64,000 nucleotides of DNA from Bifidobacteriaceae bacterium. Its GTDB lineage: Bacteria > Actinomycetota > Actinomycetes > Actinomycetales > WQXJ01. The stretch covers positions 1-64,000 of the forward strand of contig JAITFE010000059.1 in assembly GCA_031281585.1 (NCBI GenBank), written 5' to 3'. How positions within the stretch are numbered: position 1 is the first letter of the stretch; every line of letters starts with the position of its first letter. Of this stretch, positions 50,661 through 60,065 are shown piece by piece. The position numbers were made by a program, and so were the translations under genes. Below the pieces are notes generated by a model. It was not told the origin of the DNA and ran no database searches. It saw only the letters and a program-made list of their open reading frames with translations.

Positions 50661-53324
50661 ATGCGCACTTCGGAAATCCGCAACCGCTTCCTCGCCTACT
50701 TCGAGAATCGGGGACACACGGCGGTCCCGTCCGCCTCTCTGATCAGCGAGGACCCGTCCCTGCTGTTCACGGTGGCGGGCATGGTCCCGTTCATCCCCTA
50801 CATGTTGGGACAGGTGCCCGCGCCGTGGCCCAGGGCCGCCTCAGTCCAGAAATGCCTCCGCACGGGCGACATCGACGAGGTCGGGAAGACCACCCGCCAC
50901 GGCACGTTCTTCCAAATGAACGGGAACTTCTCGTTTGGGGACTACTTCAAGGAGGGAGCTATCGCGCACGCCTGGGAGCTGGTCACCGGGCCGCAGGCGG
51001 ACGGCTTCCTGGGGTTCGACCCGGACGCGATCTGGGTGACGGTCTTCCATGAGGACGACGAGGCGGCGGCCCTGTGGCGGAGCGTGGCCGGATTGCCGCC
51101 GGAGCGCATCCAGCGGCGGGGCATGAAGGACAACTTCTGGTCCACCGGCCAGCCGGGGCCGGCCGGCCCCTGCTCCGAGATCTATGTGGACCGGGGGCCT
51201 CAGTTCGGTCCCGACGGCGGCCCCGTCGTGGACGAGGACCGGTTCCTGGAGATCTGGAACCTGGTCTTCATGGAGTTCGAGCGCGGCGCCGGCGGCGCGA
51301 AGAGTGACTATCCGCTGCTGGGGGAGTTGGAGCAGAAGAACATCGACACCGGCATGGGTTTGGAGCGGGTCGCCTACCTGCTCCAGGACGTGGCCAACCT
51401 GTATGAGATCGACGAGGTGGTGCCGGTCATCCGCCGCACCGAGGAACTGACGGAACGCTCCTACGGCGCGGACCACGAGGCGGACGTACGGATGCGGGTA
51501 ATCGCCGACCACGTCCGCTCTGGCCTGATGGTGATCGCCGACGGGGTGACCCCCTCAAACGAGGGCCGGGGCTACGTGCTGCGGCGGCTGCTGCGGCGAG
51601 TGGTCCGGTCGATGCGCCTATTGGGCGTCGAGGAGCCGGTTTTCCCCGAGTTGTTCGAGGTCTCCAAGGACGCCATGAAGTCCTCCTACCCGGAGTTGGA
51701 GCGGGACTGGGCGCGCATTTCCGGCACCGCGTATAGCGAGGAGGAGTCTTTCCTGCGCACGCTGGCGGGCGGGTCCACCATCTTAGATGTGGCGATCGAC
51801 CGCACCAAGGCGGCCGGCCGGCCGGCCTTGTCCGGCCAGGACGCCTTCCAGTTGCATGACACCTACGGCTTCCCCATCGACTTGACCCTGGAGATCGCGG
51901 CCGAACAGGGTTTGGCGGTGGACCAGGAGGCGTTCCGCGCCTTGATGCGCGAACAGAAGGAACGGGCGCGGGCGGACGCGGTCGCCAAGAAGACGGGTCA
52001 CGCCGACACCTCCCTCTACCAGGAGCTGGCCGCCCAAGTCGGCCTGACAGACTTCACCGGCTATGCCGAATACGAGTCGCGCGGCCGGGTCTTGGCGCTG
52101 ATTCAGGACGGCCAGGGCATCCCGCTGGCGCAGGCACCCGCCAACGTGGAGCTGATCCTGGACGCCACGCCGTTCTACGCGGAGGCGGGCGGTCAATTGG
52201 CGGACCAGGGCACCATCGAGTTCGACTCGGGCGCGGTGTTCGAGGTGGACGACGTGCAACGGCCCATCAAGGGCCTCTCGGTCCACCGGGGCCGCCTGAT
52301 CGAAGGCCGCCTGGCGGCCGGCGACCAGGGCCTGGGCCGGATCGACGTGGAACGCCGCAAGGCGATCTCCCGCGCCCACACCGCCACGCACATGGTCCAC
52401 AAGTCGCTTCGCGAGCACCTTGGCTCCACCGCCACCCAGGCGGGTTCGGAGAACGCGCCCTCGCGGCTCCGGTTCGACTTCCGGTACGGGTCGGGGGTCC
52501 CGCAGTCGGTCTTGGGGGAGATCGAGGAGCGGGTCAACACCATGCTGGCGGAGGACCTCGAGGTCACGGAAGAGTTGATGGACCTGGACAAGGCCCGGGA
52601 ACTGGGCGCCATGGCGCTGTTCGGGGAGAAATACGGCCGGATTGTCCGCGTCGTGTCGATTGGCGGCGACTGGTCGCGCGAGTTGTGCGCCGGCACGCAC
52701 ATGCGCCGCTCTGGCGAATTGGGCCGCGTGTCCGTGTTGGGGGAGGCGTCGATCGGCTCGGGGGTGCGCCGCGTCGAGGCCCTGGTCGCGGATGGCGCCT
52801 ACGCGCATCAGGCCAAAGAGCACCTCCTGGTCTCACAGCTAACCGACGTGTTGAAGGTCCGGCCAGACGAGTTGGTTGACCGAGTGGGCTCGCTGGTCGC
52901 CAAGCTGAAGGAGGCGGACAAGGCTCTGGCGGCAATGCGGTCAGCCCAGTTGGGCGCCCAGGCCCCGGCTTTGGCCGCGTCGGCGCGCTCGGTCGCCGGA
53001 GTGCGCCTGGTGACGGCCACCCTGGACGGCGCCAGCGGCGACGACCTGCGGGGCCTGGCTCTGGACGTGCGCTCCCGCCTGGGGGAGTCCGAACCGGTTG
53101 TGGTCGCCCTGGGTTCCAAGGACGCGGACAGCGGCCGCGGGGTTTTGGCCGTGGCGGTGAACGATGCCGCTCAGTCCGCCGGTCACAAAGCCGGCGTCTT
53201 GGTGGGGTTGGCTTCCAAGGTGTTGGGTGGCGGCGGGGGCGGCAAGCCGGCGTTGGCCCAGGGCGGCGGCGCGGACGGCTCCAAGCTGGACCAGGCCTGG
53301 GCGGCCATCGCCGGCGCGCTGTGA
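50661..53324 (+). CDS. alaS: Alanine--tRNA ligase
   Basis: Charges tRNA-Ala. The class II catalytic core starts RTSEIRNRFLAYFENRGHTAVPSASLI and has TRHGTFFQMNGNFSFGDYFKEGAI. The editing domain carries HTATHMVH and CAGTHMRRSGELG, giving the zinc-binding HxxxH and CxxxH motifs. The C-terminal DHHA1-type domain ends VLGGGGGGKPALAQGGGADGSKL. The length of 887 residues is normal. It overlaps ruvX by 4 bp. Confidence 0.97.
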   Translation: MRTSEIRNRFLAYFENRGHTAVPSASLISEDPSLLFTVAGMVPFIPYMLGQVPAPWPRAASVQKCLRTGDIDEVGKTTRHGTFFQMNGNFSFGDYFKEGAIAHAWELVTGPQADGFLGFDPDAIWVTVFHEDDEAAALWRSVAGLPPERIQRRGMKDNFWSTGQPGPAGPCSEIYVDRGPQFGPDGGPVVDEDRFLEIWNLVFMEFERGAGGAKSDYPLLGELEQKNIDTGMGLERVAYLLQDVANLYEIDEVVPVIRRTEELTERSYGADHEADVRMRVIADHVRSGLMVIADGVTPSNEGRGYVLRRLLRRVVRSMRLLGVEEPVFPELFEVSKDAMKSSYPELERDWARISGTAYSEEESFLRTLAGGSTILDVAIDRTKAAGRPALSGQDAFQLHDTYGFPIDLTLEIAAEQGLAVDQEAFRALMREQKERARADAVAKKTGHADTSLYQELAAQVGLTDFTGYAEYESRGRVLALIQDGQGIPLAQAPANVELILDATPFYAEAGGQLADQGTIEFDSGAVFEVDDVQRPIKGLSVHRGRLIEGRLAAGDQGLGRIDVERRKAISRAHTATHMVHKSLREHLGSTATQAGSENAPSRLRFDFRYGSGVPQSVLGEIEERVNTMLAEDLEVTEELMDLDKARELGAMALFGEKYGRIVRVVSIGGDWSRELCAGTHMRRSGELGRVSVLGEASIGSGVRRVEALVADGAYAHQAKEHLLVSQLTDVLKVRPDELVDRVGSLVAKLKEADKALAAMRSAQLGAQAPALAASARSVAGVRLVTATLDGASGDDLRGLALDVRSRLGESEPVVVALGSKDADSGRGVLAVAVNDAAQSAGHKAGVLVGLASKVLGGGGGGKPALAQGGGADGSKLDQAWAAIAGAL

Positions 53325-53782
53325 CCGGGCCGAGCGGCCCCTGGCTCGGGGTGGACCTGGGCCAGGTCCGGGTCGGCCTGGCCAAATCCGACCCCGGCCT
53401 GGTGTTGGCCATGCCCCTGGCCACTCTGCAACGGGCAGGCCGCTCGGTCGAAGCTCTGGCGGACCACCTGGCCCGTGTGGCGCGGGAGGAGAACGCCCGC
53501 CGCGTGGTAGTCGGCTGGCCCCTCAACATGGACGGCACGATTGGCCCCAAAGCGGCCGAGGCGGGCGAACTGGCGGCGGCGCTGAAGGCGAAGGGAGTCG
53601 AAACGGCCCTCCAAGACGAGCGGCGCACCACCAGCCAGGCGAGCGCCCAACTGCGGGAGGCAGGCCGGGACGCCAAAAGCCAACGCGCTGTGATAGACCA
53701 GGCGGCGGCCACTTTGATCCTCCAGTCGGCGCTGGACACGCGCCAACCACTCGGCCCGCTTGAACCGCTTGAGCCGCTTTAG
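53321..53782 (+). CDS. ruvX: Holliday junction resolvase-like RuvX/YqgF
   Basis: A 153-residue RNase H-fold nuclease linked to 16S rRNA 5'-end maturation in other bacteria. It has the first acidic residue in LGVDLGQVRVGLAKSD, then VVGWPLNMDGTIGPKAAEA and the DERRTTSQASAQL segment before the last acidic residue (VIDQAAATLILQ). GTG start overlapping the alaS stop by 4 bp. In related genomes mltG follows directly, but here a TsnR-type gene is interposed. Confidence 0.94.
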   Translation: MTGPSGPWLGVDLGQVRVGLAKSDPGLVLAMPLATLQRAGRSVEALADHLARVAREENARRVVVGWPLNMDGTIGPKAAEAGELAAALKAKGVETALQDERRTTSQASAQLREAGRDAKSQRAVIDQAAATLILQSALDTRQPLGPLEPLEPL

Positions 53783-53795
53783 CCACGGTGCCTGG

Positions 53796-53801
53796 TAGGG
53801 T
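53796..53801 (+). promoter_or_regulatory. Putative -10 element of leaderless tsnR
   Basis: TAGGGT lies at -12 to -7 before GTG 53808, with no ribosome site between, immediately after the ruvX stop. It would let the methyltransferase gene be transcribed apart from alaS-ruvX. Confidence 0.5.
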
Positions 53802-53807
53802 CGCGGG

Positions 53808-54644
53808 GTGAAGCTTGCCGAGCCAGTCGAATCCCTGGGCGACCCGCGGGCGCAGCGGATCGCCGATGTGGCCAAACCCTCGCATTCGAACACGAAAGTG
53901 GCGTTGATCGAGGACGAGGAGCCGCTTGTCAACGCCCTGGCGGCTGGGGTGGAGTTTGTCGAGGTCTACCATGAACGGGGCCATGCCGTCCCGTCCGCGC
54001 TGGCACAGGCCCTTGAAGACGCGTCCGTCCCGGTCGCGGCGGTTGACGGCGCGCTCCTGACCCGCGTCTTCAGGACCGACAAACGACCACGGTGGTTCGG
54101 GGTCGCCAAGGTGCCGCGTCCGGCCTGGCTGGAGGACCTGGAGGACCGAGCGGGCGACATCGTGATCCTGGACGGTGTGCGGATCGTGGGGAACATCGGG
54201 GCGATCATTCGGACGGCAACCGCCTTCAACGCGGCGGGGATTGTCCTGATCGACTCTGGCCTGAGCACCATTGCGGACCGAAGGCTCCTCCGCGCCAGTC
54301 GCGGCTACGTGTTTTCGCTGCCCGTTGTCCTGGCGCAGGCCGACGAGTTGGCCCGCTTCCTAGACGACCAGCGAATCCGGGTCGCCGTGCTTGACGCCGG
54401 CGCCCCAACCAGCCTTGAGGAACTGGCAGGCGAGCCTGAACGGCGAGCTCTGGTATTCGGGAGCGAGCGCACCGGCCCGTCGGCGCGCTTCCGGCCCGGC
54501 GGCGTGGGTCGGGAACCCCTGCCCCTCGCAGCGTCCATCCCCATGCCGGGGCCGGTCGAGTCGCTCAACGTTTCGGTCGCGGTCGCGGTCACGCTTTACG
54601 CGTTGACGTCCCCGAAACGGGGCCTGGACGTGTCGGATTCGTGA
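53808..54644 (+). CDS. tsnR: TsnR/NshR-type 23S rRNA (adenosine 2'-O)-methyltransferase
   Basis: A 278-residue SPOUT methyltransferase. The N-terminal domain GDPRAQRIADVAKPSHSNTK and IEDEEPLVNALAAGVEFVEVY is the distinctive TsnR/NshR RNA-binding domain, not that of generic SpoU enzymes. The catalytic domain has GVRIVGNIGAIIRTA (N129, R135), RASRGYVFSLPVV (R165), ALVFGSERTGPS (E220) and ESLNVSVAVA (N254), the knotted SAM site. Known members methylate A1067 of 23S rRNA and give resistance to thiostrepton and nosiheptide. It is inserted between ruvX and mltG with its own leaderless promoter, and sampled GC is about 60%, lower than neighbours. Resistance in this host is inferred. Confidence 0.88.
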   Translation: MKLAEPVESLGDPRAQRIADVAKPSHSNTKVALIEDEEPLVNALAAGVEFVEVYHERGHAVPSALAQALEDASVPVAAVDGALLTRVFRTDKRPRWFGVAKVPRPAWLEDLEDRAGDIVILDGVRIVGNIGAIIRTATAFNAAGIVLIDSGLSTIADRRLLRASRGYVFSLPVVLAQADELARFLDDQRIRVAVLDAGAPTSLEELAGEPERRALVFGSERTGPSARFRPGGVGREPLPLAASIPMPGPVESLNVSVAVAVTLYALTSPKRGLDVSDS

Positions 54645-54710
54645 GGGTTCGCACTGGCCAGCGCGTCAGTGGAGGCAAGGCAAGGTCACAAAACGGTAAG
54701 CTTCTCTCCC

Positions 54711-56333
54711 GTGAGCGACCAGTGGACTCCTTTCGGACCCGACAAGGCCCCTCCGCCGCCCGCGCAGCCGAGCTTCCCTCCCCAGGGCCCGTTTACGCCG
54801 GAGCAAGGCGAGCCCGAGTTCCTCGAGCCGGACCGGTACCAGCCTGAGCAGTTCGAGCCGCAGCAGTACCAGCCCGAGCAGTTCCAGCCGGGCCAGTACC
54901 AGCGCGAGCAGTACGAACCCGAGCAGTACCAGCCAGAGCAGTACGCACCCGAGCAGTACCAACCGGGCCAGTTCCAGCCGGAGCAGTACGAGCCCGGGCA
55001 GTACGAACCCGAGCAGTACGCACCCGAGCAATACCAGCCTGAACAGTACGAACCTGAACAGTACGAACCTGAACAGTACGAGCCCGAGCAGCTCCAGTCC
55101 GAGTACTACGAACTGGAGCAGTATGAACCGACCCCGGAGCCGAGCGGGGCCGCGGTCTCCCGCCGCGCCCTGCGCGAGGCGGAGGCCGCCCAGGCCGAAG
55201 CCGTCAAGGAGACCAGGCAGGCGAGTAGGCGCGGGCCGATCACGGCCGTGATGATGATTGTGCTGGTGGTCGCGGTGGGCACCGTGGGATTTGTTGTCGG
55301 CAAGCCGATGATTGAGCGGCTGACGCAGCCGAAGCCGACCACGGTCACGGACTATCCGGGCCCGGGCGCGGGCGCGACCACCATCACCATTGACCAAGGC
55401 GATCCGGGCAGCACGATCGCCCAGAAGTTGGTCGACGCGGGCGTGATCGCCACCACCGGAGCTTTCATCCAAGCCTGGAACAAGGCCGGGGACACGGCCG
55501 CGTCTATCCAACCGGGCACGTACGCGCTGTTTGAGAAGATGAGCGCGGCCGACGCGCTGGCCGCGCTGCTCGACCCGGCCAACCGGAACGCGATCGTCTT
55601 CACCGTGCCGGAGGGCAAGCGCGCCGGCCAGGTGTACCAGATCATCGGGTTGGCGATGGCGCGAGCCGATTTGGGCGCCGATGCCGACCAGGCGGCCCTC
55701 GATCAAAAGGCCAGCGAGGACGCCCAACTAGTCGAGCAGGCGGCCGCGGACCAGGCCGGGATCGGCCTGCCGCCGGAGGCGGGCGGGCTGGTGGAGGGGT
55801 GGCTCTTCCCGGAGACCTACAGCTTCAACATTGGCACCACGCCCACTGAGATGCTGGCCAAGATGGTGTCTCAGACCGTCGCCGTGCTGGAGGACCTGAA
55901 GGCGCCCAGGGAAAACTGGGCGAAGATCCTCACCATCGGGTCGCTGGTGGAGAAGGAGTCCAAGCTCTCTGACGACCGCCCGAAGACGGCCCGCGTCATC
56001 TATAACCGCCTCGACGTGGGCATGAGGCTCCAGCTTGATTCGACCGTGGTCTACGGCGTGGGGCGCTTTGACGACAAGGTTGCCACCAGCCAGGCCGAAC
56101 GCGACGACCCGAACCCCTTCAACACCTATGTGGTGCCGGCCCTGCCTGCGGGCCCGATCTGCAATCCCGGCCTGGAGGCAATCGAGGCGGCGATAAATCC
56201 CGCCCCCGGAGCCTGGATCTACTTCTGCGCTTGGAACCTGGAGACTGGCGAGACGATCTTCTCTGAAACCCTGGAAGGCCAGCAGAGGTGCATTGACAAG
56301 TGGCACGCCTGGGAAGCGGAACAGGCCGGATGA
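54711..56333 (+). CDS. mltG: Endolytic transglycosylase MltG with glutamine-rich repeat N-terminus
   Basis: A YceG-fold membrane enzyme that cuts nascent glycan strands. From GTG 54711 it has about 540 residues. A disordered cytoplasmic region holds some 20 copies of a five-residue unit of the type EQYEP/EQYQP (about residues 40-142), then VSRRALREAEAAQA, then one membrane helix (about 176-197). The extracellular part has a LysM-like segment, WLFPETYSFN, IGSLVEKESKL with the catalytic-type glutamate E414, and LDSTVVYGVGRFDD. The repeat is far longer than in usual MltG. GTG 54711 is preferred over GTG 54669 because the latter adds residues without family character; the ribosome site is weak for either. 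Confidence 0.92.
   Translation: MSDQWTPFGPDKAPPPPAQPSFPPQGPFTPEQGEPEFLEPDRYQPEQFEPQQYQPEQFQPGQYQREQYEPEQYQPEQYAPEQYQPGQFQPEQYEPGQYEPEQYAPEQYQPEQYEPEQYEPEQYEPEQLQSEYYELEQYEPTPEPSGAAVSRRALREAEAAQAEAVKETRQASRRGPITAVMMIVLVVAVGTVGFVVGKPMIERLTQPKPTTVTDYPGPGAGATTITIDQGDPGSTIAQKLVDAGVIATTGAFIQAWNKAGDTAASIQPGTYALFEKMSAADALAALLDPANRNAIVFTVPEGKRAGQVYQIIGLAMARADLGADADQAALDQKASEDAQLVEQAAADQAGIGLPPEAGGLVEGWLFPETYSFNIGTTPTEMLAKMVSQTVAVLEDLKAPRENWAKILTIGSLVEKESKLSDDRPKTARVIYNRLDVGMRLQLDSTVVYGVGRFDDKVATSQAERDDPNPFNTYVVPALPAGPICNPGLEAIEAAINPAPGAWIYFCAWNLETGETIFSETLEGQQRCIDKWHAWEAEQAG
54836..55132. repeat. 15-bp imperfect tandem repeat within mltG
   Basis: A run of 15-bp units based on GAGCAGTACCAGCCC, encoding E-Q-Y/F-x-P, occupies about 300 bases of the mltG 5' part. 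Variation is mostly at the fourth codon (Q, E, A) and between Y and F. It is in frame throughout and coding, so it is not a CRISPR array. Confidence 0.85.
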
Positions 56334-57148
56334 CGAACCGCGCGGCGGTGCTCGGCAGCCCGATCAGCCACTCGCTTTCGCCGGCGCTGCACCAGGCCGG
56401 CTATGCGGCCCTGGGGCTGACCGACTGGATCTACGAGACGGTCGAAATGACGGAGTCCGGTCTGGGGCCGTGGCTCGCCGGCCTGGGCCCGGAATGGAGG
56501 GGTTTGTCCTTGACCATGCCCCTGAAGCGGACCGCGCTGGGGTTGGTTGACCACGTGCAGCCCCTGGCGAAGATGGTGGGCGGCGCGAACACCGTGCTGT
56601 TCAATCAGGCTGGAACTGTGGGCGCGAACACCGACGTGCACGGCATGGTCGCCGCCGTCCGCGAAGCCCGGCCGGACGGGGCGTTTCGTTCCGCGAGCGT
56701 GATCGGGGGCGGCGCGACCGCGGCGGCGGCCCTTGCGGCGCTGGCCGAATTGGCGCTCAGGCGGCCCCGCGTCTACATCCGTTCGGTTGCCCGTTCGCAG
56801 CCCACTCTTGCGGCCGCGGGCCGCCTGGGCGTGGAGCCGGAATTGCGGAAGCTTCGCCCGGAGCAGCCGCCGCCGGACTGGCCGGCGGACTTGACCATCT
56901 GCACTCTGCCGCCGCACGCCGCCGACCCGCTGGCCGAAGGCCTGGGCGAGGCGCTGGTCCCGTCCGGCGCCCTGCTGCTGGACGTGGCGTACAGCCCGTG
57001 GCCCTCGGCGTTGGCGGACGCTTGGGCCAGGGCGGGCGGGAAAGTCGTCTCCGGCAAGGCCATGCTGCTGCATCAGGCCGCCGCGCAGTTCCAAATGATG
57101 ACCGGCCACGCCGCGCCCCTCGCCCAGATGCGTGCGGCGATCGCCTGA
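56330..57148 (+). CDS. aroE: Shikimate dehydrogenase
   Basis: Reduces 3-dehydroshikimate to shikimate. The start NRAAVLGSPISHSLSPALHQAGY carries the substrate serines, LSLTMPLKR the catalytic lysine, GGANTVLF and GANTDVHGM the substrate aspartate, and ASVIGGGATAAAAL the nucleotide-binding loop. The protein has 272 residues. ATG 56330 overlaps the mltG stop by 4 bp and matches the family start. It begins the aroE-aroC-aroK-aroB-aroQ cluster. Confidence 0.94.
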   Translation: MTNRAAVLGSPISHSLSPALHQAGYAALGLTDWIYETVEMTESGLGPWLAGLGPEWRGLSLTMPLKRTALGLVDHVQPLAKMVGGANTVLFNQAGTVGANTDVHGMVAAVREARPDGAFRSASVIGGGATAAAALAALAELALRRPRVYIRSVARSQPTLAAAGRLGVEPELRKLRPEQPPPDWPADLTICTLPPHAADPLAEGLGEALVPSGALLLDVAYSPWPSALADAWARAGGKVVSGKAMLLHQAAAQFQMMTGHAAPLAQMRAAIA

Positions 57149-57166
57149 ACCGGAGACAATGAATCC

Positions 57167-58339
57167 ATGCTGCGTTGGTTGACGGCCGGAGAATCGCACG
57201 GTCCTGCGGTCTTGGGCGTGCTGGACGGCATCCCGGCCGGGGTGGAGGTGGCGCCCCGGGACGTGGCGCGGGCGCTGGCCCGGCGGCGGGCGGGGCACGG
57301 TCGCGGCGCCAGAATGGGCTTCGAAGCCGACCAGGTGGAAATCCAGGGCGGGATTTGGCGTGGGAAGACCACCGGCGGCCCGGTCGCCATCGCCGTGGCC
57401 AATTCGGAATGGCCCAAGTGGCGGGAGGTCATGTCGCCGGAGCCGGGTCCGCCGCCGGACACGGCCCGGGCCGCCAAGCTGACCCGACCCCGGCCCGGCC
57501 ACGCCGACTTGGCGGGCATGGTCAAGTACGGGCAGGATGACGCCCGCGCCATTTTGGAGCGATCCTCCGCCCGTGAGACGGCCGCGCGGGTGGCTCTGGG
57601 GGCGGTCGCGGCGGCTTTCCTAGACCAGGCTCTGGGGATCCAGATTGTCAGCCACGTGGTGGCGCTTGGCGGGGTGGTGTCGAACGGCCCCGCCCCCAGA
57701 CCGGATCAAGCCGCCGCCGTTGACGCCAGCCCGGTCCGCACCCTGGACGCGGCGGCCGAACGGGCGATGGTGGACCGGATCGACCAGGCGAAGCAGGCGG
57801 GCGACACCCTAGGCGGGGTGGTCGAGGTGATCGCCTACGGCGCGCCGGTGGGGTTGGGCTCCCACGTTCAGGCGGACCGGCGCCTGGACGCGGCGCTGGC
57901 GGGCGCGCTGATGGGCGTCCAGGCGATCAAGGCCGTGGAGATCGGCCTGGGTTTGGCGGCCGCGAGCCAACCGGGCTCGGCGGTGCACGACCAAATCACG
58001 CGCGAAGACGGCCGCGTCACCCGTGTGACCAACAATGCGGGCGGGATTGAGGGCGGCGTCTCCAACGGTGAGCCGATTGTCTTGCGCGCGGCCATGAAGC
58101 CCATCCCGACGGTGCCCCGCGCGCTCGCCACGATCGACACTCAAACGGGCGAGGCCGTCCCGGCCCACCACCAGCGTTCGGACACAACGGCGGTCCCGGC
58201 GGCGGCGGTGGTCGCCGAGGCGATGACCGCGTTGGTGCTGGCCCAGGCGGCCCTGGACAAGTTTGGCGGCGACTGCCTGGCCGAGGTCCGCCGCAACGTG
58301 GCGGGCTACCTGGCCGCCGTCCCGGAGTTTTGGAGGTGA
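57167..58339 (+). CDS. aroC: Chorismate synthase
   Basis: Forms chorismate from EPSP using reduced [27 protein letters not shown] is the first signature with its catalytic histidine, and [29 protein letters not shown] and [22 protein letters not shown] follow. It has 390 residues, normal for the family. It lies 18 bases after aroE and overlaps aroK by 4 bp. Confidence 0.97.
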
Positions 58340-58854
58340 GCGCGCTGGTGATGATAGGACCGCCGGGCGCTGGCAAGACCACCATCGGAAGGCACCTGGC
58401 CGGCCGCCTCAAAGTCGCGTTCGTGGACACGGACGAGGCGGTTGAGGCCCAGGCGGGACAGCCGGTCAGCGAGATCTTTGTGCGCCAGGGCGAGCCCGCG
58501 TTCCGCTCCATGGAGCGCGAGGCGGTCGCCGCGGCGCTGGCCCAAGCGGACCAGGCCCCCATGGTCATAGCGCTGGGCGGCGGCGCGCCTCTCGACCCCG
58601 CCACGGCGCGCGCCCTGGAGGGGGCCACGGTGGTCTTCCTCGACGTGTCTGACGCGCTGGCCATCCGGCGCGTTGGCCTGAGCGCGGCCCGGCCATTGCT
58701 GGCCGGATCGCCCCGGAAGGCCTGGCGGGAATTGATGGCGCAGCGCCGACCGGTCTATGAGGGCCTGGCCGATGTCATAATTCAAGTGGACGGTCTCAGC
58801 CCACAGGACGCCGCTGGACGGATCGCCGCGTTAGTGATGGAAGGGGAGCGATGA
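58336..58854 (+). CDS. aroK: Shikimate kinase
   Basis: Phosphorylates shikimate at O3. The P-loop is [18 protein letters not shown], the substrate aspartate is in [12 protein letters not shown], and the ALGGGAPL loop and the RPLL lid motif are present. About 172 residues. The start at GTG 58336 overlaps the aroC stop (GTGA); an upstream TTG at 58330 is possible but less likely. It overlaps aroB by 4 bp. Confidence 0.94.
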
Positions 58855-60065
58855 GTCCGTCGCAAATCACAGTCGAGGTCGACCAGCCTTACGAGGTCGC
58901 GGTGGGGCACGGACTGCTGGCCAGGCTGGCGGAATACCTGCCGAAAACAGCCGGACGTTTGATGATCCTGTTCGACCCGGCGGTGGCCGGACCAATTCCG
59001 GCCCTGGTCGACGAGTTGCGCAAGGACGGCTTCGAGGTCCACCTGTTGGCGGTGCCCAGCGGCGAGGAGGCCAAGACCATCGCGGTCGCGGCGGCGGTCT
59101 GGCAGCGGTTGGGCGAGGCCGCCTTCACCAGAACCGACGCGATTGTCGGAATTGGGGGAGGTTCCACCACGGACGTCGCCGGGTTCGTCGCGGCCACATG
59201 GCTGCGCGGCGTGCCGGTGCTTCAGGTCCCCACCACCCTGCTGGCCATGGTGGACGCCGCCATTGGCGGCAAGACCGGCATCAACACGGACGAGGGCAAG
59301 AACCTGGTGGGCGCCTTCCACCAGCCCGCAGCCGTGATCTGCGACCAGCAGTTGTTGGACACCTTGCCGACCGAGGAGATCGTCTCCGGCATGGCTGAGG
59401 TCATCAAGTCCGGCCTGGTGGCGGACCCCGGCATTTTGGACGTGGTCTGGTCGGGTCCGCAGGAGACCCTGAAGCCGGCGAGCCCCTTGCTGACGGAGCT
59501 CATCCGCCGGGCCGTGGCGGTCAAGGCGGAAGTTGTCGCGGAGGACCCCGCCGAATCCGGCCGCCGCACCATCCTCAACTACGGCCACACCTTTGGGCAC
59601 GCCATTGAACAGGTCGAGCATTTCCGCTGGCGCCACGGCGACGCGGTCGCGGTCGGGATGGTTTACGCCGCCGAGGTCGCCGTGCGGGCCGGATTGATGG
59701 ATCCGTCCCTCCTTGGCTTGCACCGCGAGCTGCTGACCGCCGTGGGCCTGCCGATCGCCTACAACTCCGGACGTTGGGCGCAGTTGTGGCCCGCCATGCG
59801 GCGCGACAAGAAGAACCGCGGCAAGACCCGCCGCATGGTCCTGTTGGAGGACGTGGGCCGTCCCGTGGTGGTCCGGGGGATTCCGGAGGACTTGCTGGAG
59901 GAGGCCTACCAGGCGATCTCGGCGGTGCCGGGGGCCGCCCCGTATCCGGTCAAGACGGCTCCCGATTACTCGCTGGAGAACCCGTACGGCACGCCCACGT
60001 ATGTGCCCCCGGTGGATGAGGACCTCGCGACCCCAGCCGGCGGTTCCCAAGGCGCCGCCACATGA
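58851..60065 (+). CDS. aroB: 3-Dehydroquinate synthase
   Basis: An NAD- and zinc-dependent enzyme that cyclises DAHP to dehydroquinate. VPSGEEAKTIAVAAAVWQRL, IVGIGGGSTTDVAGFVAATW, PTTLLAMVDAAIGGKTGIN and the zinc ligands in LNYGHTFGHAIE and RWRHGDAVAVGM are all seen. At 404 residues it is longer than most because of a C-terminal tail of about 40 residues after the enzyme domain (YPVKTAPDYSLENPYG). It overlaps aroK and aroQ by 4 bp each. Confidence 0.96.
   Translation: MSPSQITVEVDQPYEVAVGHGLLARLAEYLPKTAGRLMILFDPAVAGPIPALVDELRKDGFEVHLLAVPSGEEAKTIAVAAAVWQRLGEAAFTRTDAIVGIGGGSTTDVAGFVAATWLRGVPVLQVPTTLLAMVDAAIGGKTGINTDEGKNLVGAFHQPAAVICDQQLLDTLPTEEIVSGMAEVIKSGLVADPGILDVVWSGPQETLKPASPLLTELIRRAVAVKAEVVAEDPAESGRRTILNYGHTFGHAIEQVEHFRWRHGDAVAVGMVYAAEVAVRAGLMDPSLLGLHRELLTAVGLPIAYNSGRWAQLWPAMRRDKKNRGKTRRMVLLEDVGRPVVVRGIPEDLLEEAYQAISAVPGAAPYPVKTAPDYSLENPYGTPTYVPPVDEDLATPAGGSQGAAT

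Follow-up and report, generated by a model that had tools for sequence, protein, structure and literature searches.

A predicted TsnR/NshR-type rRNA methyltransferase gene between ruvX and mltG in a Bifidobacteriaceae genome that also carries a thiopeptide-type cluster

The locus between ruvX and mltG

The window, i.e. the whole stretch of 64,000 nucleotides analysed here, contains an intact methyltransferase gene within the alaS-ruvX-mltG-aro block (Table 1). The preliminary description had placed this gene at 53796-54644; the gene does lie there, but its start does not, as position 53796 opens an in-frame TAG at codon 1 of that interval and coding begins with the GTG at 53808. The surrounding gene order, from alaS to aroB, was confirmed through homologues in relatives.

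Table 1. Features of the window and of the thiopeptide-type cluster on contig C158 of the same genome
Feature	Position	Strand	Remarks
alaS, conserved block	50661..53324	+	homologues in relatives
ruvX, upstream neighbour	53321..53782	+	homologues in relatives
-10 box TAGGGT, extended -10 (TGG TAGGGT) of putative leaderless promoter	53796..53801	+	ends 6 nt before GTG
TsnR/NshR-type SPOUT 23S rRNA 2'-O-methyltransferase (predicted)	53808..54644	+	GTG start, 278 aa, intact frame
mltG, endolytic transglycosylase, downstream neighbour	54669..56333	+	homologues in relatives
aroE-aroC-aroK-aroB, conserved block	56300..60065	+	homologues in relatives
SagD-type YcaO protein	C158:59384-61273		profile match
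ThiF/YcaO protein	C158:61337-63430		profile match
SagB dehydrogenase	C158:63490-65040		TIGR03605, 112 bits (cut-off 78)
Lant_dehydr_N protein (split LanB)	C158:64997-67708		profile match
LanB-C protein	C158:67698-68816		TIGR03891, 87 bits (cut-off 48)
Precursor, 59 aa, MSTADIAGLAAELDALNAETLEVKDYVDYSDAAFASSSSCSSTTSTCSSCSSTSSCAAL	C158:70048-70227		two thiazolylpeptide precursor models
Second SagD-type YcaO protein	C158:72059-73756		profile match

Within a sample of 18 genomes of the family, the TSNR_N domain was present in nine. Five genomes, all of the same genus, carry tsnR between ruvX and mltG: the window genome (G000), G008, G010, G005 and G006, the last two at contig ends, with the mltG side visible in G005 and the ruvX side in G006. 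ruvX directly adjoins mltG in 11 further genomes of the family, including four from this genus, in agreement with the earlier statement that this block is normally uninterrupted. Three genomes of the genus with an uninterrupted junction (G004, G009 and G012) carry a TsnR elsewhere, at unrelated sites and about 47% identical. Because the insert occurs in five genomes of the genus and is absent from 11 other family genomes, the insertion is a derived state of one sub-clade. Pairwise dN/dS values of the block orthologues ranged from 0.17 to 0.43 (approximate, with dS near saturation), and tsnR is under purifying selection in this sub-clade.

On a wider scale, 20 out of 396 genomes in the order had a TSNR_N score above the cut-off, and the domain was found in 5 of 397 genomes of the phylum sample, the four besides the window genome at marginal scores. 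Thus, tsnR is an accessory gene rather than a housekeeping gene. A recent import by a mobile element or phage was considered and rejected, since the best plasmid match was 48.6%, phage matches stayed below 34% and were mostly partial, and the GC content, GC3 and codon use of tsnR are like those of the neighbouring genes. A 5.2-kb plasmid record of Pseudomonas sp. SK2 (NZ_CP061946.1:1005-1745) holds an annotated nshR that is 48.6% identical to the window protein; this gene could derive from the tsr marker of a vector instead of belonging naturally to a plasmid. Near relatives that bear names are MAGs carrying the label Bifidobacteriaceae (isolates Cd354_bin95, Cd354_bin28 and Nc350_bin167). The window genome itself is likely of termite-gut origin, judging from the JAIR/JAIS accession series, which lies near that of the termite-gut genera g__JAISFQ01, g__JAITBJ01 and g__JAITFB01 (PMC11707648).

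A leaderless promoter of its own had also been proposed for the gene, and the comparison of the five block orthologues supports it. In all five, exactly 6 nt separate the end of a TANNNT element from the GTG. Across the last 20 nt before the GTG, mean pairwise identity was 0.75, while each of the four 20-nt blocks further upstream gave only 0.24-0.30, compared with 0.28 for random registers. As the position of TANNNT is fixed and the upstream sequence cannot be aligned, a leaderless promoter is well supported; and as TANNNT stands without any other conserved element, the region fits an extended -10 promoter whose transcript would start at or beside the GTG.

Family, catalytic residues and phylogeny of the methyltransferase

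The Pfam search gave the two-domain architecture of TSNR_N (109.3 bits, cut-off 28.3, E=1.4e-31) followed by SpoU_methylase (92.7 bits, cut-off 29.7, E=3e-26). The top NCBIfam model was NshR_TsnR (NF000477), with 310.6 bits and E=8.4e-93. This score misses the equivalog cut-off of 425 bits, as do those of all ten relatives scanned (233-351 bits); the protein is therefore named here a TsnR-type enzyme, not an equivalog as defined by NCBI. Meanwhile, the RlmB model TIGR00186 reached merely 70.9 bits against a cut-off of 160. The nearest solved structures by sequence were NshR of Streptomyces actuosus (3nk6, 50% identity) and Tsr/TsnR (3gyq, 48% identity), with E values of about 1e-73. Both share the architecture and motifs of the window protein, which in the comparison with NshR are GNIGAIxRT, FGSE and ESLNVSV. 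The SPOUT domain is 53-58% identical to those of NshR and Tsr and the N-terminal RNA-recognition domain 39-43% (39% for NshR). The TsnR pattern described earlier as running from residue 12 on was recovered, with the quoted motifs in place and DPRAQ beginning at residue 12.

The SPOUT motif residues N129, G131, E220, S252 and N254 are all present in the window protein, together with the catalytic Arg135, which bears the identical residue number to R135 of NshR. Loss of R135 inactivates NshR (PMC4409310). In the TsnR alignment, N129, G131, R135, R165, E220 and N254 are invariant. R165 and S256 are constant across the TsnR clade and different in most other SPOUT rows, and none of the well-aligned SPOUT paralogues of the same genome has Arg at position 165. 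Residue 221 is basic (K/R) in every TsnR row except that of G159. By its sequence, the methylase is an ordinary enzyme of the standard thiostrepton-resistance type. It does differ from NshR by an insertion between motifs 2 and 3, which measures 6 aa in the window protein and about 36 aa in the G008 orthologue; the G006 orthologue has an insertion of about 24 aa before motif 2. Species-specific insertions in block orthologues were seen at loci L112:5001-5909 and L098:1874-2752. Structure prediction from four sequences gave a pLDDT of 53.5.

A tree of 32 rows was built, with the window protein, Tsr/NshR and the SPOUT paralogues of the window genome among its rows. The window protein and Tsr/NshR fell into a clade of 13 rows with support of 95/97, inside a wider TsnR clade of 23 rows with support of 98/99. 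The own-genome paralogues fell outside the TsnR clade, save for one long-branch row (ownSPOUT_C124, branch length 5.2) inside the sister TsnR group, whose placement is unreliable. The five other SpoU enzymes of the genome are 20-29% identical to the window protein. As the tree groups the window protein with Tsr/NshR, far from these five enzymes, the grouping with housekeeping SpoU proteins that the preliminary description had named as counter-evidence does not apply; the Pfam domains, closest structures, tree and residues all agree on the TsnR/NshR family. RlmB/TrmH-type enzymes share the SPOUT fold and motifs 1-3 with the window protein, but lack the TSNR_N domain. A housekeeping SpoU identity was ruled out on family scores, tree and identity.

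The thiopeptide-type cluster on another contig

It had been suggested that the genome be searched for a thiopeptide cluster, and a thiopeptide-type RiPP cluster was found on contig C158 (C158:59384-73756, L020/L021), with a counterpart in G008 (L061:790-16003). A stretch of 14 kb on this contig, which stops at 75139, holds all three YcaO-domain proteins of the genome as well as its sole Lant_dehydr_C protein. The cluster comprises a YcaO cyclodehydratase, a SagB dehydrogenase and a split LanB dehydratase as well as membrane proteases and an ABC exporter, and its SagB gene is intact according to a tblastn search with the G008 protein. The precursor scored above the cut-offs of both TIGR03892 (36.8 bits, cut-off 25) and NF033400 (40.3 bits, cut-off 30). 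At the cluster edge (C158:56839-58161, L020:11839-13161) there is an intramembrane metalloprotease that resembles the HExxH family of daptides, with 180 bits against a cut-off of 300.

The precursors of G008 and the window genome agree at 57 of 59 residues, and the last 26 residues, the core region, are identical throughout (dN=0, dS about 1.1), while the cluster enzymes and transporter are 49-69% identical. Since the core is the same in two species despite saturated silent sites, the precursor makes a good candidate for the discovery of compounds.

In thiopeptide biosynthesis, two LanB-C-type proteins are normally required, for elimination and for the synthesis of the pyridine. The whole window genome has one PF14028/LanB-C-type protein, with a weak score of 66.8 bits against 325 for the pyridine-synthase model NF045556, and the G008 cluster has one as well; the product may therefore be a linear azole peptide. 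The precursor core is Ser/Thr-rich, unlike known SCTTC-type cores.

In G002, which belongs to another genus, LanB proteins (L062, G002:C55) share 92-93% identity with their counterparts in the window genome, while two alaS fragments of the same pair of genomes are 60-78% identical. This suggests that the cluster was transferred horizontally, or else that an error occurred in binning. G012 holds a different LanB/YcaO cluster, beside which a transposase-like ORF lies at the end of contig G012:C151 (L060:9497-10078).

Proposed role of the enzyme and alternative readings

TsnR and thiopep_ocin were both above cut-off in five of 396 genomes of the order (G000, G008, G012, G076 and G159) against 0.9 expected (Fisher p=0.001, kinship ignored). 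Outside the family, the co-occurrence was 2 against 0.4 expected (p=0.06), and within the family p was 0.29, kinship being ignored in both. The LanB-C protein was not detected in six of the nine TsnR-bearing family genomes, a count weakened both ways by incomplete assemblies, and G002 has it without a TsnR. For 23S rRNA, the RF02541 model had no match in the window genome and the GTPase-centre pattern had none in the 18 family genomes; the rRNA is most likely missing from these assemblies.

The explanation that we consider probable as a whole is that the enzyme would methylate A1067, the helix 43 nucleotide of 23S rRNA to which family membership points, at its 2'-OH, and would thereby block thiopeptides with a 26-atom ring whose binding site is the L11/GTPase-associated centre. 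Its gene would be expressed from its own promoter as a leaderless transcript; presumably it entered the ruvX-mltG junction in the ancestor of the genus sub-clade, and purifying selection keeps it there. The result would be a standing protection, directed against the thiopeptide-type product of the organism itself wherever the unlinked cluster exists (G000 and G008), and elsewhere against the thiopeptides of neighbours. This explanation draws on the two-domain TSNR_N+SpoU architecture, NshR/Tsr as the closest structures, Arg135, the TsnR-clade residues R165, K/R221 and S256, which the SPOUT paralogues of the genome lack or have replaced, both tree supports, the conserved promoter, the cluster in the same genome, the order-wide co-occurrence (p=0.001) and a precedent in S. 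laurentii, whose thiostrepton-resistance methylase gene likewise lies away from its own cluster, among ribosomal protein operons (PMC6804068). The window gene differs from that precedent in its position between ruvX and mltG. The computations themselves establish the family, the catalytic residues, the position of the gene, the selection on it, the conservation of its promoter and the presence of the cluster in the genome; the target nucleotide, the resistance and the tie to the cluster are inferences. Counting against the explanation are the missed NF000477 cut-off, the low identity of the N-terminal domain, the 23S rRNA search that returned no A1067 loop, the six TsnR carriers lacking a detected LanB-C protein, and the reverse case of G002.

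The methylase and the C158 cluster are plausibly a resistance/product pair. Such a pair would consist of two unlinked parts and is testable. A TsnR-type enzyme and a thiopeptide-type cluster here occur in the same MAGs, which carry the label Bifidobacteriaceae and probably derive from termite guts, whereas the usual setting is Streptomyces. The preliminary description had suggested that the organism makes thiopeptides or lives with their makers. A thiopeptide-type cluster is indeed present, but production as such is not readable from tsnR alone, because several relatives carry tsnR and no detected cluster.

It is also quite possible, if somewhat less than even in our estimate, that the same enzyme acting on the same target serves as defence against the thiopeptides of other gut bacteria, and that the co-resident cluster is unrelated to it, making for instance a linear dehydroazole peptide of the goadsporin type. 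The incomplete overlap of TsnR and LanB-C among the family genomes, the single LanB-C protein with its weak pyridine-synthase score and the Ser/Thr-rich core are in line with this, as is the LanB similarity of G002 (92% identity), which suggests independent movement of the cluster. However, the precursor exceeds the cut-offs of two thiazolylpeptide models, and the order-wide co-occurrence exceeds chance. Taken together, self-protection and neighbour-protection appear about equally likely. It seems quite improbable that the unlinked TsnR confers dedicated immunity to a Ser/Thr-rich azole-dehydroalanine peptide that lacks a pyridine and binds the L11/23S GTPase centre; we know of no pyridine-less azole-dehydroalanine peptide that acts at this centre.

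It is unlikely that the enzyme is a housekeeping or regulatory 2'-O-methyltransferase of rRNA or tRNA that arose from the TsnR fold, acts on another target and plays no part in resistance. Its position inside a housekeeping block, the vertical maintenance in the sub-clade under purifying selection, the score under the equivalog cut-off and the insertions of varying length that separate motifs 2 and 3 would suit such an enzyme, but the gene is patchy and has been lost or relocated even inside the genus, its product stands beside Tsr/NshR in the tree, and every TsnR-type residue is retained. Finally, an ordinary RlmB/TrmH-like paralogue misread as TsnR can practically be dismissed, because the SpoU domain and common motifs that it would explain are outweighed by the low RlmB score, the five separate SpoU enzymes in the genome and a tree that sets these paralogues apart.
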